Positions 38,832-46,179 of a stretch of DNA of 64,000 nucleotides are shown here, piece by piece; position 1 is the first letter of the stretch, and the number at the start of each line of letters is the position of its first letter. Below the pieces are notes generated by a model. The model did not search any database and was not told the origin of the DNA. It saw only the letters and a list, made by a program, of their open reading frames with translations. The DNA is from Gammaproteobacteria bacterium (GTDB taxonomy: Bacteria; Pseudomonadota; Gammaproteobacteria; Pseudomonadales; Azotimanducaceae). The DNA lies in NCBI GenBank assembly GCA_026708185.1, contig JAPOVK010000053.1, positions 1-64,000 on the forward strand, written 5' to 3'. The position numbers and the translations under genes were made by a program.

Positions 38832-39704
38832 ATGAAACTCGGCGTCGTTTTCCCGCACCACGAAATCGGTACGGATCCGGGTGCGATCAAGGCCTACGCC
38901 CAAGGTGCCGAGGCACTCGGGGCCGACCACATGCTCATCTACGACCACGTCCTCGGTGCCGATCCCGACAGGCCCGGCGGCTGGACGGGCCCGTATGACA
39001 AGGACGTCGCCTTCCACGAGCCGTTCACGGTGTTCTCGTTCATGGCGGCGGTGACGGAGACGATCGAGTTCGCTACGGCCGTGTTGATCCTGCCGCAGCG
39101 CCAGGCGGCGCTGGTGGCGAAGCAGGTGGCGGAGTTGGCGATCCTGTCGGGCAACCGGTTCCGGCTCGGCATCGGCACGGGGTGGAACGAGGTCGAGTAC
39201 GAGGCCCTCGATGTCCCGTTTGCGCGCCGCGGCAAGCGCCAGGAAGAGCAGGTCGAACTCATGCGCAAGCTCTGGGCGTCCGACAACCTGACCTACGGGG
39301 GCGACTTTCACACCGTGACCAAGGCCAGCATCCTGCCGCGCCCGACTCGGCCCGTGCCGATCTGGTTCGGCGGCGGGGCACCCGCGTTGCTCAAACGCTG
39401 CGCCCTGATCGGCGACGGCTGGGTGCCTCTCGGCGGGCCGGGCGAAGGCTCCGCCAACGCGCTGCGCCAGATCCGCGCCCACCGGGAAGCGGCCGGCCTG
39501 GCGTGGGACGGCTTCGGAATCCAGGCCCAGGCCCAGTTTCGCGGCGGCACGCCGGAACGCTGGCAGAACCACGCATCGCGCTGGGTGGATCTCGACTGCA
39601 CGCATATCGCCATCGCCACCCACAACGCGGGCAACCGTACGGTAGACGACCACCTGGCCGCGGCGCGCGCCTACTTCGACGCGGTGGGAGACGTCGCCGC
39701 CTAA
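38832..39704 (+). CDS. luciferase-like (LLM class, F420/FMN-dependent) oxidoreductase
   Basis: A 290-residue TIM-barrel flavin/F420 enzyme: MKLGVVFPHHEIG, then AEALGADHMLIYDHVLG, TAVLILPQRQAALVAKQVAEL, RFRLGIGTGWNEVEYEAL and PVPIWFGGG. This is the LLM class F420-dependent TIGR-type fold. Whether F420 or FMN is used cannot be told; no F420 biosynthesis gene is in the window. AGGAG lies 6 bases before the ATG. It is followed after 4 bp by the ABC-F gene. Confidence 0.88.
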   Translation: MKLGVVFPHHEIGTDPGAIKAYAQGAEALGADHMLIYDHVLGADPDRPGGWTGPYDKDVAFHEPFTVFSFMAAVTETIEFATAVLILPQRQAALVAKQVAELAILSGNRFRLGIGTGWNEVEYEALDVPFARRGKRQEEQVELMRKLWASDNLTYGGDFHTVTKASILPRPTRPVPIWFGGGAPALLKRCALIGDGWVPLGGPGEGSANALRQIRAHREAAGLAWDGFGIQAQAQFRGGTPERWQNHASRWVDLDCTHIAIATHNAGNRTVDDHLAAARAYFDAVGDVAA

Positions 39705-41710: not shown

Positions 41711-43066
41711 ATGCCCATCGTGTCCGAGATTGATCGGGTGACCACAAGCGAAAACAAGATCTACCTTCCGGAGTCGCGGCTTCCGCGGAGCTGGTACAAC
41801 ATGGTGGCCGAGCTGCCGTTTGAAGTTCCGAGGCCACTTCATCCGGTCGAGGACCGAGGCGTCGAAATCGACGACTACGACTGGCTATGGCCGCTCGAGT
41901 GTCTTCGAATCGAGCTGCAAGAAGGCAGATACGGGACCGATCCGTGGATAGAGATCCCGGAATTCATAGCGGAAGTCTACCGTCGCTATCGTCCGTCACC
42001 CTTGGTGAGGGCCCGTTCGCTGGAGAGGCACCTGGGAACCCCTGCCGAGATCTACTACAAGCGTGAAGATCTCAATCCTGCGGGAAGCCACAAATTCAAT
42101 ACGGCCTTGGTACAGGCGTACTACGCGGCGCGCGAAGAAAACTCGCAGATTCACAGCATGGTCACCGATACGGGCGCCGGGCAGTGGGGAGCAGCCCTGG
42201 CGATGGCGTGCGAAACGCTCGGACTCGGTTGTGATGTGTTCATGATTCGCAAGAGCTACGAGGAGAAGCCGTATCGACGCTACCTGATGCGCATGGCGGG
42301 CGCAGACGTGTACTCCTCGCCTAGCCGGTTGACGAAAACCGGACGGGAGATCCTCAAGGACGATCCGGAGAACTCCGGCAGTCTCGGCATCGGCATGAGC
42401 GAAGCCATCGAGTTCGTCAAGGAGGATCGCGGCAGACGGCTGGCCTTGGGGTGCATGTCGTACTACGCCGTTCTCCACCAGTCCATCATCGGCTTGGAGA
42501 CGAAGCTGCAACTCGAACAGATCGATCGGTCGCCTAGCCTGATGATCGGCTGCGTGGGGGGAGGCAGCAACTTCACGGGGTTCATAGCACCGTTCGTCCC
42601 GGAGAAGGTCGGCGGCAGCCCCATCGAGTTCCGCGCCATAGAGCCGGAATCGATACCCACGTTGAGTCGCGGTGAGTACCGATACGATTGGGCCGACTTC
42701 TCCGAGCTGACGCCGCGGATCCTGATGTACACGCTCGGCCATCGATTCGTACCGCCGCCGGTTCACTCCGGCGGACTGCGTTATCACGGCAAGACGCCCG
42801 TACTCTCGGCATTGGTCAAGAACGACCTCGTCGGCACCCGGACCTTTGGCCAAAGCGAGGTCTTCGACGCGGGACGGGTGTTCCTGAAGACCGAAGGCGT
42901 TCTTGCCGCGCCGGAAAGTGCTCATGCCGTCCTGGGAGCCATCGATGCGGCGAAGGATGCGTCAAGAACTGGGCAGAAGCCGGTGATCGTGTTCTGCCTG
43001 TCGGGTCACGGCTATCTCGATCTGCAGGGCTTTTCGGATGTGCTCGACCTTGACCCATCGGATTAG
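41711..43066 (+). CDS. TrpB2-like PLP-dependent enzyme (tryptophan synthase beta-like)
   Basis: A 451-residue fold-type II PLP enzyme of the TrpB2 group. Motifs are LPRSWYNMVAELPFEVP (group-specific start), RPSPLVRARSLE, KREDLNPAGSHKFNTA (Schiff-base Lys), TDTGAGQWGAALA, the phosphate-binding GCVGGGSNFTGF and a C-terminal FCLSGHGYLDL. TrpB2 proteins condense serine or phosphoserine with indole or an unknown acceptor and act without the usual TrpA. No trp gene is nearby. It overlaps the beta-RFA-P synthase gene by 29 bp, which ties the two functionally. Third codon positions here look less GC-biased than in flanking genes. Confidence 0.88.
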   Translation: MPIVSEIDRVTTSENKIYLPESRLPRSWYNMVAELPFEVPRPLHPVEDRGVEIDDYDWLWPLECLRIELQEGRYGTDPWIEIPEFIAEVYRRYRPSPLVRARSLERHLGTPAEIYYKREDLNPAGSHKFNTALVQAYYAAREENSQIHSMVTDTGAGQWGAALAMACETLGLGCDVFMIRKSYEEKPYRRYLMRMAGADVYSSPSRLTKTGREILKDDPENSGSLGIGMSEAIEFVKEDRGRRLALGCMSYYAVLHQSIIGLETKLQLEQIDRSPSLMIGCVGGGSNFTGFIAPFVPEKVGGSPIEFRAIEPESIPTLSRGEYRYDWADFSELTPRILMYTLGHRFVPPPVHSGGLRYHGKTPVLSALVKNDLVGTRTFGQSEVFDAGRVFLKTEGVLAAPESAHAVLGAIDAAKDASRTGQKPVIVFCLSGHGYLDLQGFSDVLDLDPSD

Positions 43067-44054
43067 CACACCCTCGCGGCTGCATTTCACGCTGATCGAC
43101 ATGAACGGCGAGCTTGGCCGCATCGACGGCAGTCTCGGCCTTTCGATCCAAGATCCATGCGTATCGCTCGAGTTCGGTCCGCACGAGCGAACGGTGGTTC
43201 GCGGAGGCGCTCCTTGTGACCGGGAGATGGTCTTGGCTGAAGTCGCGGCAAGCAGCGAGATCCTCCAAGTGGAACCGGGCATCGAAATCCTCATCCGCCA
43301 AGTGATTCCGGCGCACCAGGGACTGGGATCGGGGACGCAGACCAGGCTCGCAGTGTTGAGTGCTTTGAATCAACAACTCGGCTTGAACCATTCCACGTCA
43401 GAGCTGGGAACCATGTCCACCCGGGGAGGCACATCGGGAATCGGAATCAGTGCGTTCAGGTGTGGCGGCTTTTTGCTCGACGGAGGCCATTCCGTGCGGG
43501 TGCAGAAGCAGTCGTTCGCCCCGTCGCACTTCGCGACCAAGGCAGGCCAACCGCCTCTACTCATGCGTACCGACTTCCCGACGAGTTGGGGGATAGTCCT
43601 TTTCATTCCGAGCCGTCACCAGGGTCTGTCAGGCTCCGACGAGCTTGACTTCATGCTCGCGAACACGCCGATCCCGCTTGATGAAGTCCAGTCGACGTCC
43701 CACATCATCCTGATGCTCCTTTTGCCCGCTTTGCGGGAACTCGATCTCGAGACCTTCGGCTCTTGCGTCAGCGCTCTTCAGGATGTGGGTTGGAAGAGAC
43801 GACACTGGATGCGGCCCGATATCCAGCCGCTTCGGTCCGTGAGGTCCGCGTTTGGCGCGACTGACGGAATCCACGGATGCGGACTCTCATCGACAGGTGC
43901 GACCATCTTCGGTTTCTTTGATGCGGCCACGTTCTCCGATGACGAGGTGTCGGCAAACCTGCGCAGCGAGTTGAGGAACGGGGAAGCGACTCCGGGACGA
44001 ATCGTGTGCACTCGGGCCAACAATTCCGGAATGCAACTGGCAGCAGCAGGCTGA
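43038..44054 (+). CDS. beta-ribofuranosylaminobenzene 5'-phosphate synthase-like (GHMP kinase fold)
   Basis: A 338-residue protein of the beta-RFA-P synthase family. Its opening PSRLHFTLIDMNGELGRIDGS is the family signature. The GHMP ATP-loop-like motif is IPAHQGLGSGTQTRLAVL (about 92-110), and GTSGIGISAFRCGGFLLDGGH follows. In methanopterin synthesis this enzyme joins a benzoate to PRPP with decarboxylation, making a C-C glycosidic bond. No other methanopterin gene lies in this window, and the partner gene is a TrpB2, so a different C-riboside product is plausible. Starts inside the TrpB2 gene. Confidence 0.82.
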   Translation: MCSTLTHRISTPSRLHFTLIDMNGELGRIDGSLGLSIQDPCVSLEFGPHERTVVRGGAPCDREMVLAEVAASSEILQVEPGIEILIRQVIPAHQGLGSGTQTRLAVLSALNQQLGLNHSTSELGTMSTRGGTSGIGISAFRCGGFLLDGGHSVRVQKQSFAPSHFATKAGQPPLLMRTDFPTSWGIVLFIPSRHQGLSGSDELDFMLANTPIPLDEVQSTSHIILMLLLPALRELDLETFGSCVSALQDVGWKRRHWMRPDIQPLRSVRSAFGATDGIHGCGLSSTGATIFGFFDAATFSDDEVSANLRSELRNGEATPGRIVCTRANNSGMQLAAAG

Positions 44055-44102
44055 ACACACGCTTCTGCCTTGGATCAACCCCAACCAGCTAGGAGGGAAC
44101 AC

Positions 44103-44390
44103 ATGGCGGCATACGTGATCGTCAATGATGAAGTATTGGATGAAGGGACTTTCTCGGACTTTCGAGAACGGATCGGCGCAACGGTCGATGCCCACGGCGG
44201 TCGTTACCTGGTGCGCGGTGGCAGCCTTGAAGTGATCGAAGGCAGTTGGTCCGCTGATCGCCTGGTCGTGGTGGAGTTCGACGACGTCGGCGCCGCACGG
44301 GCATGGCTCAGTTCGCCCGAGTACACCGAGCTCAAAGGAATCCGGGAGCGGTCGGCGAACGCGAACGTGATACTCGTCGAAGGCGTTTAG
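44103..44390 (+). CDS. DUF1330 protein
   Basis: A 95-residue dimeric alpha/beta-barrel protein: AAYVIVNDEVLDEGTFSDF, GGRYLVRGGSLEVIEGSW, RLVVVEFDDVGAARAWLSSPEY. The strong Shine-Dalgarno AGGAGGG at 44091-44097 fixes the start. It is third in the TrpB2/RFA-P synthase unit, 48 bp downstream. DUF1330 proteins have no settled function; the fold often binds or isomerises small aromatic or oxo compounds. Confidence 0.85.
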   Translation: MAAYVIVNDEVLDEGTFSDFRERIGATVDAHGGRYLVRGGSLEVIEGSWSADRLVVVEFDDVGAARAWLSSPEYTELKGIRERSANANVILVEGV

Positions 44391-44445
44391 CTCCGGCCTT
44401 CTGACGGTCGAGGCAGCCGGCCACAACGGTCGCCGCTGTCTCGAC

Positions 44446-46179
44446 TCATCCCGTCTGTTCGACTTTCACGGTGACGACGTCGACGCCGTGGTACTTCCTG
44501 TGGTGAACCGCCGATGCGTAATGTCGCAACAGCCGGAAGGACAGTTCGCGGTCATCGTGGACTTCGGCTTCCTCGCTCATGTAAGCGAGTCGATCCTCGA
44601 TGTTCTGCTCTTCGAAGACGGAAAGCAGGTCCATCTCGACGGCATCGTCCTTTGAACGGGCCACGATGATGAGTCGCGTATCCGTGACATCGTCCTCGGT
44701 CGCCGAAGACAGCAGACACTGCAACGACTCCTCGCCGGATGCACGGAGCCGATTGGCCGACTCCTCGTTCCATCCGATGGCGTTGGCGAAGTTCTGGAGG
44801 AACGCGTCGATCCTTGCGAGGGACGATGCCGCAAGTTCCACTTCGAGCTTCTTGCTGCGCGGGCTGGTCAACTCCAAGAGCGTCGTCAGGGCGACCATCA
44901 CCAGGATCCCGGCGGTCGTTCCGTTTGCGAGGATGGAGACCCAGAGCGCATCCGTACGCACGCCGAAGAGGTTCAGACTTTCGACCCCGAGCCCTACCGA
45001 AAGGGTCGTCGCAACGATCACCGTGTTTCGTTGGTCGAGTCCTTCCCTGAAGAGCATACGCATCCCTTCGACCAGCAGCATTCCCATCACCATCAGTAGC
45101 AACGAAGCCACGACGGCGCTCGGGGCGGCGAGCAACAAGCCCGTGACCTTGGGAAAGAACGCGAGCAGGATGAGTACGGCGCCGATCCAATAGCCGATGC
45201 CGCGAAACGCAATGCCTGTCAGATTGATCAAGGAAATGCTGGACGGCGAATAGGGCACGGTGGGTGGCGTCCCAGCCAAGCCGGACAGGAGCCCTCCTAG
45301 GCCACTTGCGTTGACAGTGCCTTGCACCACGCGGAAGTCGATGGCTCGTGGTCGGCGAAGGGAAACCTGCTGAATTACGACACCATCGCCGCCGATCTTC
45401 ACGGCGACGACAAGCGTCACGAGCACGAAAGTCGGCAATAGCGTCCAGAACTCGGGCCCCAGTGTCAGACCAACTCCGGGCCACGCGCCGAAATCCGGCA
45501 ACTGGATCCACGGTACCTGCTTGAGAAACTCGAGGTCGTAGAGGTCGAAGTACGCGGCGACGACACAACCGGACAAGATCCCCGTGAGCGGCGCCCACAG
45601 CCGCAGGGTTCCCGAACCCTTCAGAGACACCACGACGGCGGTGCCCAAGGTGGCTGCGACAACCAGTGGGCTCGCAATCAGCGGCGTGCCTTCGGGCACA
45701 CTCGCCAACCTGTCCACGGCGACGGCAATCACCGAAATGGAGATCAGCATCAGCGATGCGCCGCAAACGACGGGCGTGATGATCCTCCTGAAAAACGGAA
45801 GCCAGGCGGCAAAAGCAAACTGGACGACGGAAGAGACAACGATGAGGCTGGCGAGCGTTGTCCAGCCTCCCGCATTGATGGCCACGACCGAGATGGCGAC
45901 GAAATGGGGTCCGGCACCGCACAAGAGTAGATGCCCTGCACCGAAACGTCCGATTCGAGATGCCTGCAAAGCTGTTACGGCACCACCGATGAGCAGAGCG
46001 GAACAGATTGCCCAAGCGAGGTACGCCTGACCCTCGTCGGAAGCCCGGACGATCATGGTGACCATCACGACCGTGTTGATCACGGCGACCACGGCGCCCT
46101 GCACGGTCACGCTCAGCGTTGCCTGGGCGGAACAAGGCTCTTCGGGTTCGTTCCGAATGCTCTTGTTCAGCGTGTTCAA
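44446..46179 (-). CDS. NCS2-type nucleobase permease fused to RsbW-like cytosolic domain
   Basis: A 577-residue protein. Residues about 20-445 are a 12-14 TM nucleobase:cation symporter-2: GAGHLLLCGAGPHFV and the family segment GLGGLLSGLAGTPPTVPYSPSS, then FPKVTGLLLAAPSAVVASLLLMV. Residues about 450-577 form a soluble domain (IDAFLQNFANAIGWNEESANRLRASGEESLQCLL and later RLLRHYASAVHHRKYHGVDVVTVKVE), whose first helices resemble anti-sigma/HATPase (RsbW-like) folds. Ordinary xanthine/uracil permeases lack this tail. Convergent with the DUF1330 gene. A transporter for a base used by, or produced by, the adjacent pathway is a reasonable guess. Confidence 0.75.
   Translation of the reverse strand: MNTLNKSIRNEPEEPCSAQATLSVTVQGAVVAVINTVVMVTMIVRASDEGQAYLAWAICSALLIGGAVTALQASRIGRFGAGHLLLCGAGPHFVAISVVAINAGGWTTLASLIVVSSVVQFAFAAWLPFFRRIITPVVCGASLMLISISVIAVAVDRLASVPEGTPLIASPLVVAATLGTAVVVSLKGSGTLRLWAPLTGILSGCVVAAYFDLYDLEFLKQVPWIQLPDFGAWPGVGLTLGPEFWTLLPTFVLVTLVVAVKIGGDGVVIQQVSLRRPRAIDFRVVQGTVNASGLGGLLSGLAGTPPTVPYSPSSISLINLTGIAFRGIGYWIGAVLILLAFFPKVTGLLLAAPSAVVASLLLMVMGMLLVEGMRMLFREGLDQRNTVIVATTLSVGLGVESLNLFGVRTDALWVSILANGTTAGILVMVALTTLLELTSPRSKKLEVELAASSLARIDAFLQNFANAIGWNEESANRLRASGEESLQCLLSSATEDDVTDTRLIIVARSKDDAVEMDLLSVFEEQNIEDRLAYMSEEAEVHDDRELSFRLLRHYASAVHHRKYHGVDVVTVKVEQTG

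Follow-up and report, generated by a model that had tools for sequence, protein, structure and literature searches.

Sequence analysis of a 64,000-nucleotide stretch of DNA from a Gammaproteobacteria bacterium (GCA_026708185.1, contig JAPOVK010000053.1; hereafter the window, which is contig C61 in an assembly of 5.13 Mb and 97% completeness) reveals a four-gene module that is real, conserved and built on a homologue of beta-RFA-P synthase (RFAPS) outside methanopterin synthesis. Besides RFAPS, the module comprises a TrpB2-type pyridoxal phosphate (PLP) enzyme, a DUF1330 protein and an NCS2-family permease. Taking the chemistry from homology and conserved residues, production of a C-riboside appears the best supported of the readings considered. 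The module would then be a small pathway of mostly sponge-associated bacteria in which an aromatic carboxylate serves as the starting point for an aryl or heteroaryl C-ribotide, a proposal to which we give slightly less than an even chance.

The preliminary description of this DNA had placed the four genes at positions 41711 to 46179, and domain and family scores bear this out. On the forward strand, the TrpB2-type enzyme (41711..43066) belongs to a divergent, module-specific subfamily; it scores 562.6 bits against NF009057 (cut-off 366), keeps Lys128 and has Asp153 instead of the indole-activating Glu. It is followed by RFAPS (43038..44054), a GHMP superfamily member and predicted C-riboside synthase dependent on phosphoribosyl pyrophosphate (PRPP), with 235.9 bits against TIGR00144 (cut-off 113.5), and by the 95-residue DUF1330 protein (44103..44390; PF07045, 99 bits, cut-off 23), whose announced strong ribosome-binding site is an AGGAGG motif 5' of the gene. 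The permease lies on the reverse strand (44446..46179; PF00860, 127.7 bits, cut-off 27). It starts with TTG, carries Lys261 in place of the substrate-site Glu of transmembrane segment 8 (TM8) and has a C-terminal domain resembling anti-sigma factors of the RsbW/SpoIIAB type (44449..44907, reverse strand) according to a structure model and Foldseek. As described earlier, it is convergent with the other genes, but the gap to DUF1330 measures 55 bp, not 56. The 29 bp overlap of TrpB2 and RFAPS stands if counted from the RFAPS ATG and shrinks to 17 bp from a TTG twelve bases downstream. This TTG may be the real start: reading by eye, the ATG runs into an in-frame stop in two relatives (L041 and L042), and all 12 relatives inspected have an open frame from the TTG. 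Chance open reading frames are ruled out by domain scores, conservation and the ratios of nonsynonymous to synonymous substitution, which range from 0.011 to 0.173 across all four genes (window versus two relatives) and denote purifying selection. Internal stops in two matches (TGA in G376, TAG in G000) were taken to mean that these matches overrun the gene ends; the lists of reading frames show open frames.

Genome contigs were scanned with patterns derived from the window RFAPS, which favours close relatives. This yielded 17 loci, 15 bacterial (66-87% identity) and two archaeal (40% and 33%). DUF1330 lies beside RFAPS in 15/15 bacterial loci, NCS2 is present in 13/15 (it is unseen in L041, where the contig ends first, and in L042, where 8 kb were read), and TrpB2 is directly upstream with an overlap in 12/15. 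Within these 12 TrpB2-bearing relatives, the permease is convergent in nine, on the same strand in one (L036) and unseen in two. In the class of one Gemmatimonadota locus, 10 of 47 genomes carry RFAPS; eight are of the module type (58-66%), three of them already known, and the five new loci contain DUF1330 (5/5) and NCS2 (4/5, the fifth contig beginning 137 bp before RFAPS). Altogether, 21 module RFAPS including that of the window (13 Proteobacterial, 8 Gemmatimonadota) are accompanied by DUF1330 in 21/21 cases, by NCS2 in 18/21 and by TrpB2 in 13/21; the Gemmatimonadota loci contribute 8/8 for DUF1330 and 7/8 for NCS2. In these totals L045 is counted once, L084 and L086 (genome G641) being apparently the same contig (17,136 bases each, same coordinates); G831, which shares coordinates with G474, is probably the same genome as the latter. 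The expected recurrence of TrpB2, DUF1330 and permease is thus found in Proteobacterial relatives. The linkage of TrpB2 holds in all 13 Proteobacterial loci, window included, but is not obligate: the gene occurs in none of the eight Gemmatimonadota stretches read, some of which cover only 4-7 kb, and three Gemmatimonadota genomes searched beyond the locus (G380-G382) gave TrpB1-type matches and no TrpB2. In Gemmatimonadota the genes follow each other on one strand, as NCS2, DUF1330, RFAPS or as NCS2, RFAPS, DUF1330, an arrangement that ties the permease to the pathway.

The surroundings of the module are far less constant. When twelve window proteins were compared across the relatives' loci, flanks on both sides were common to L035 only; ilvD and argE lie close by in L044, five loci (L037, L038, L039, L044 and L049) match two of the flanking families more weakly (32-40%), and otherwise there is no common flank. 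The module genes have a G+C content of 0.60-0.61, versus 0.657 for the whole window. Their G+C is also below that of the flanks in L035, L037, L038 and L047 (six loci besides L035 were compared), but equal to or above it in L043 (0.49 versus 0.472), L044 (0.509 versus 0.504) and L098 (0.558 versus 0.507). Acquisition as one block is thus suggested by the window's G+C, but the other loci do not uniformly agree. The module genes have probably passed between lineages. On plasmids, 39 records carry RFAPS, all below 60% identity and at most 34.9% among the 20 listed, and no NCS2 relative was found at 1e-20. Viral contigs gave eight pattern matches, none of them a TrpB2 relative, in a scan that reaches close relatives only.

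The 13 TrpB2-bearing loci are that of the window and 12 from metagenome-assembled genomes, with the label Gammaproteobacteria in 11 cases and Rhodospirillales in one; the label of L036 was given by the depositor and could be a product of binning. The window genome and G641, seemingly the genome of L045, belong to the same family. Sampling of the window's order (293 genomes) brought up an RFAPS of any kind in three: the window's own genome, G641 and a genome with a 30% relative in different surroundings. The order of L036 gives 1/22 and that of L044 2/194, one being probably that same 30% relative. In the window's class, RFAPS occurs in 49 of 369 sampled genomes, all but the window's at 40% identity or less. 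A search for the permease at E 1e-30 across 398 genomes sampled from the phylum found relatives in eight, including the window's. The isolate labels of the named loci's genomes (RHO, COS, IRC, SB06xx) fit reef-sponge studies. In its available part, one such study equates IRC with Ircinia ramosa and RHO with Rhopaloeides odorabile and names a Nitrospira SB0677 (PMC12203066); the accessible text of another includes Rhopaloeides, Coscinoderma and Ircinia among the hosts (PMC8163846). COS would then stand for Coscinoderma, and all SB06xx bins are presumably sponge-derived.

Membership of the TIGR00144 family raises the possibility that the module RFAPS is simply its genome's only MptG, at work in methanopterin synthesis. 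The two markers examined, Fae (PF08714) and MCH (PF02289), make this barely credible. Fae was found in 0/16 bacterial module genomes and in 2/2 archaea. MCH was found in 0/23 RFAPS-bearing bacterial genomes (the 21 module genomes, among them the window's 97%-complete one, plus G682 and G683), and in 2/2 archaea and 3/3 class-level genomes with an ordinary methylotroph-type RFAPS. Methanopterin synthesis was rejected on these absences: the preliminary description, which noted no methanopterin genes at the locus, is upheld on this point, and neither marker of such a pathway turned up elsewhere in the window's genome. Its expectation of a clade distinct from methanopterin-linked MptG is also borne out. 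In a quick maximum-likelihood tree of 86 rows, the 21 module RFAPS form one clade with a support of 100 in the Shimodaira-Hasegawa-like approximate likelihood ratio test (SH-aLRT) and a stem of 1.33 changes per column. A separate clade contains 29 methylotroph-type sequences (SH-aLRT 100), and 32 archaeal sequences group with two Gemmatimonadota-class ones (G682 and G683). Proteobacterial and Gemmatimonadota module sequences are weakly separated (27 and 83), and ForT, the RFAPS homologue of formycin synthesis, sits like the G474 sequence on a long branch whose position is uncertain. Against the equivalog model NF040726 (cut-off 328), the three module sequences scored all fall short (window 276.8, L047 286.2, L044 275.4 bits); archaeal L050 (420) and L051 (342) and Gemmatimonadota-class L102 of G683 (366) pass. 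The 30% relative from the window's order (L104:9864-11045) has 157 bits against the same cut-off, a very long branch and an unrelated genomic context.

The best PDB match of the window RFAPS is ForT (6yqq, E 6e-33). The roles of ForT residues Thr138, Ser174, Glu211, Ser21, Lys263 and Gln266 are taken from the accessible part of a study in which, as far as that part goes, E211A is the only variant confidently measured as inactive (PMC9832568). Equivalents of Thr138, Ser174 and Glu211 are kept in 16/16 readable rows of the 17 aligned. The same holds for Asp21 and Arg28 (16/16), matched by numbering to Asp19 and Arg26 of the Methanothermobacter thermautotrophicus enzyme, which affect aryl-acid binding according to the portion available of PMC6787355. 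These rows represent 15 distinct genes, as L084 repeats the L045 gene; the L042 row is near-empty and the alignment precedes the five newer Gemmatimonadota sequences. The phosphate-loop motif is kept as well. His16 stands in the column of ForT Ser21, where the other bacterial and archaeal RFAPS aligned also have His. The retention of these residues leads us to infer that the module RFAPS is a working C-riboside synthase using PRPP and an aryl carboxylate. Alternatively, the enzyme may have drifted to an N-riboside, an O-riboside or a kinase-like reaction and make no C-riboside. The scores below the NF040726 cut-off and the long stem of the clade speak for such drift, as does ForT itself, which, in the part of the study at hand, forms a C-N nucleotide when given an altered substrate (PMC9832568). 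However, preservation of the Glu required in ForT, of the phosphate loop and of the aryl-acid Asp and Arg makes this quite unlikely.

The module TrpB2s are 84-96% identical to that of the window, which in turn is 41-45% identical to 30 ordinary TrpB2s of the same class; the latter share at least 59.6% identity among themselves and come from loci in 30 of 50 other matched genomes (274 searched). There are 88 positions where the module TrpB2s agree on a residue that is found neither in these 30 sequences nor in one archaeal TrpB2. One such difference is at position 153, Asp in 13/13 module enzymes and Glu in 30/30 ordinary TrpB2s and the archaeal one. Lys128, the PLP lysine by motif, is invariant in 44 sequences, and the GGGSN loop is kept. 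The window enzyme does not reach TIGR01415 trpB_rel (505.8 versus 518.85 bits). In the available part of PMC12727527, the TrpB Glu activates indole via its N-H and is essential for tryptophan formation; bacterial TrpB in which Gly, Ala or Ser takes its place can use phenols, and a plant TrpB-like enzyme lacking it did not use phenol.

It could be argued that the TrpB2 is an ordinary indole-salvage tryptophan synthase lying upstream of RFAPS by chance, with only RFAPS, DUF1330 and NCS2 cooperating. The gene was not found in the Gemmatimonadota loci, no second TrpB was found in 3/13 module genomes, and an outlying trpB2 alongside an operonic trpB1 is common in archaea (PMC1854888, in the part accessible). 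Yet we consider this very unlikely: the RFAPS start is overlapped in 12/12 Proteobacterial relatives with mostly different flanks, and the 88 module-specific positions set the enzyme apart. Moreover, a second gene, of TrpB1 type, is present in 10/13 module genomes, in the window's at C31:32370-33416 between trpF-like and trpA-like genes (neighbours by eye), which makes a role of the module TrpB2 in tryptophan synthesis unlikely. The idea that it is the genome's only tryptophan synthase was rejected on account of this separate TrpB1; the earlier statement that tryptophan genes are missing accordingly fails for the genome, these genes lying outside the module. Within the stretches of about 3.3 kb read around each of the 30 ordinary TrpB2s, no RFAPS was found.

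The best PDB match of the permease is UapA (5i6c, 1.5e-8), and in this alignment Lys261 faces the Glu of the UapA TM8 motif, which we take to be a substrate-site ligand residue. Lys261 is present in 18/18 module NCS2s. Nine other NCS2s lack the Lys: the two long paralogues of the window genome have Glu and Asp, and a long one of G1261 and six shorter ones have Glu. The reversed charge hints at an anion as the substrate, in keeping with the need of RFAPS for an acid. The permease remains far from TIGR00801 (139.5 versus 291.8 bits). Folding of its C-terminal 153 residues gave a predicted local distance difference test score (pLDDT) of 71 in the best of five models and 31-48 in the other four; a single-sequence fold of the whole permease reached 40. 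The C-terminal model matches the anti-sigma factors UsfX, SpoIIAB and RsbW (best Foldseek E 1.3e-7; template modelling score by target 0.67-0.84 in the top 19 matches), and the domain was aligned in 14 sequences including the window's. Fusion of such a domain to a transporter raises the possibility, on the strength of this model, that the permease may also signal in a substrate-linked manner. The two long paralogues of the window genome (L184 on C11 and L185 on C17) share this domain; by eye, one lies beside glycolate-oxidase-like genes and the other beside a methyltransferase-like gene.

That NCS2 is a core part in both lineages would also fit salvage instead of synthesis. A sponge-derived aromatic acid or base analogue would be scavenged and ribosylated for degradation or detoxification, with TrpB2 as a lyase or dehydratase, in a layout comparable to xpt-pbuX, where a xanthine phosphoribosyltransferase accompanies its permease. 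A TrpD/phosphorylase-family protein and a sulfatase, encoded upstream on the same strand in three Gemmatimonadota loci (L098, L100 and L101), fit the processing of an external conjugate. Nevertheless, C-C-forming and beta-substituting enzyme families are odd choices for degradation, and no recurrent ring-cleaving gene was noticed in the loci, where a minority of the shared gene clusters was annotated; salvage thus seems unlikely.

Other neighbours of RFAPS vary. In L098 (9560-15570), as in L100 and L101, the TrpD-like, sulfatase, NCS2, RFAPS and DUF1330 genes form an operon-like series on one strand. In Gemmatimonadota loci L046-L048 the module continues into PhyH and SDR genes. In L102 (9782-11491; G683, MCH not found), a 40% RFAPS directly precedes a TrpF-family protein (PF00697, 98 bits); this RFAPS passes the methanopterin equivalog cut-off despite that neighbour and the missing MCH. 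The TrpD-like and TrpF-like proteins score below their NCBIfam cut-offs. A GMC-type oxidoreductase (named by eye) is near the module in 5/12 TrpB2-bearing relatives, at two different positions. All these associations are few and come partly from close relatives. Upstream of the module, the window itself encodes a luciferase-like monooxygenase (38832-39704, forward strand) of the TIGR03619 'F420-dependent' family (227.6 bits versus a cut-off of 166.9).

Returning to the C-riboside proposal, the steps can be pictured as follows. The permease would import an aromatic or heteroaromatic carboxylate, which RFAPS, judging from its homology and retained residues, would join to PRPP with release of CO2 and pyrophosphate, giving a C-linked riboside 5'-phosphate. 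In the least certain step, the Asp-variant TrpB2 would transfer an alanyl unit from serine or O-phosphoserine onto the aromatic ring or its precursor, and the product would bear an amino acid. DUF1330, presumably a small dimeric protein of alpha-beta-barrel type, might at a guess assist as an isomerase or cyclase. The Gemmatimonadota variant would dispense with the TrpB2 step and have PhyH and SDR, or the TrpD-like protein and sulfatase, beside the same core.

Several points weigh against this scheme. Its substrates, its product and the TrpB2 step are those that sequence comparison predicts, and uptake is a presumed direction of transport. NCS2 proteins are known as nucleobase or ascorbate transporters, and Lys261 does not prove an anionic substrate. 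The scores of RFAPS below the methanopterin equivalog cut-off fit a different reaction too. ForT Lys263 and Gln266 are not kept, being His256 and Arg259 in the module alignment, although these columns are uncertain, as HMMER pairs them differently. Asp153 retains a carboxylate and may still allow the use of indole, and TrpB2 may belong to a side branch, given its absence from the eight Gemmatimonadota loci. The core module is without a phosphatase. Finally, since several loci such as L037, L040 and L049 are close relatives, not every locus in the counts is an independent case.

C-nucleosides are resistant to enzymes by which ordinary nucleosides are cleaved, and to our knowledge few routes to them have been described. 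If the proposal is true, the product would be a kind of small molecule so far undescribed, and the module would supply a new pair of C-C-bond-forming enzymes. The presence of so compact a module in unrelated sponge symbionts would indicate a metabolite common to their symbioses, and the role of a TrpB2 outside tryptophan synthesis becomes a directly assayable question. A bolder version, which we regard as somewhat unlikely, is that of a new natural-product pathway in sponge symbionts. An imported aromatic acid would be turned into an aryl C-nucleotide by RFAPS, and a TrpB2 that has taken on a new function would attach an alanyl side chain, giving C-riboside amino acids. More broadly, RFAPS outside methanopterin synthesis would repeatedly recruit relatives of the tryptophan pathway (TrpB2 in the module, TrpD-like and TrpF-like proteins in Gemmatimonadota-class genomes), as a 'C-ribosyl' counterpart of tryptophan synthesis. 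No paper on this module showed up in a literature search, whose reach stopped short of subscription papers.

Among known systems, MptG of archaea and methylotrophs is homologous to the module RFAPS over nearly its full length, with a best identity of 44% in 60 archaeal genomes and at most 40% in class-level bacteria. The aryl-acid Asp and Arg and the ForT-required Glu are kept in the module enzyme, which nevertheless forms its own clade, in genomes where Fae and MCH were not found, and has TrpB2, DUF1330 and NCS2 as neighbours. With TrpB2 tryptophan synthases, reportedly 'O-phospho-L-serine dependent' in the words of a 2014 title by Busch, the module enzyme has in common NF009057 membership, the PLP lysine and the GGGSN loop; it differs by the change of the catalytic Glu to Asp, by an identity of only 41-45% and by its overlap with RFAPS. 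The PF00860 domain is shared with NCS2 nucleobase permeases (UapA, 5i6c; PbuX), from which the module permease departs by Lys at the substrate-site Glu and by its additional anti-sigma-like C-terminal domain. An RFAPS-like enzyme is also used in pyrazofurin synthesis, according to the accessible part of PMC8724604. Purine-like tailoring genes of formycin synthesis were not noticed near the module, whose flanks were not searched for them. The module occurs in other phyla than ForT, has His for Ser21 and does not keep Lys263 and Gln266 in the alignment. Still, ForT is likewise an RFAPS homologue used outside methanopterin synthesis and has Thr138, Ser174 and Glu211 in common with the module; by analogy, the module may work as a C-riboside synthase system of the ForT kind.

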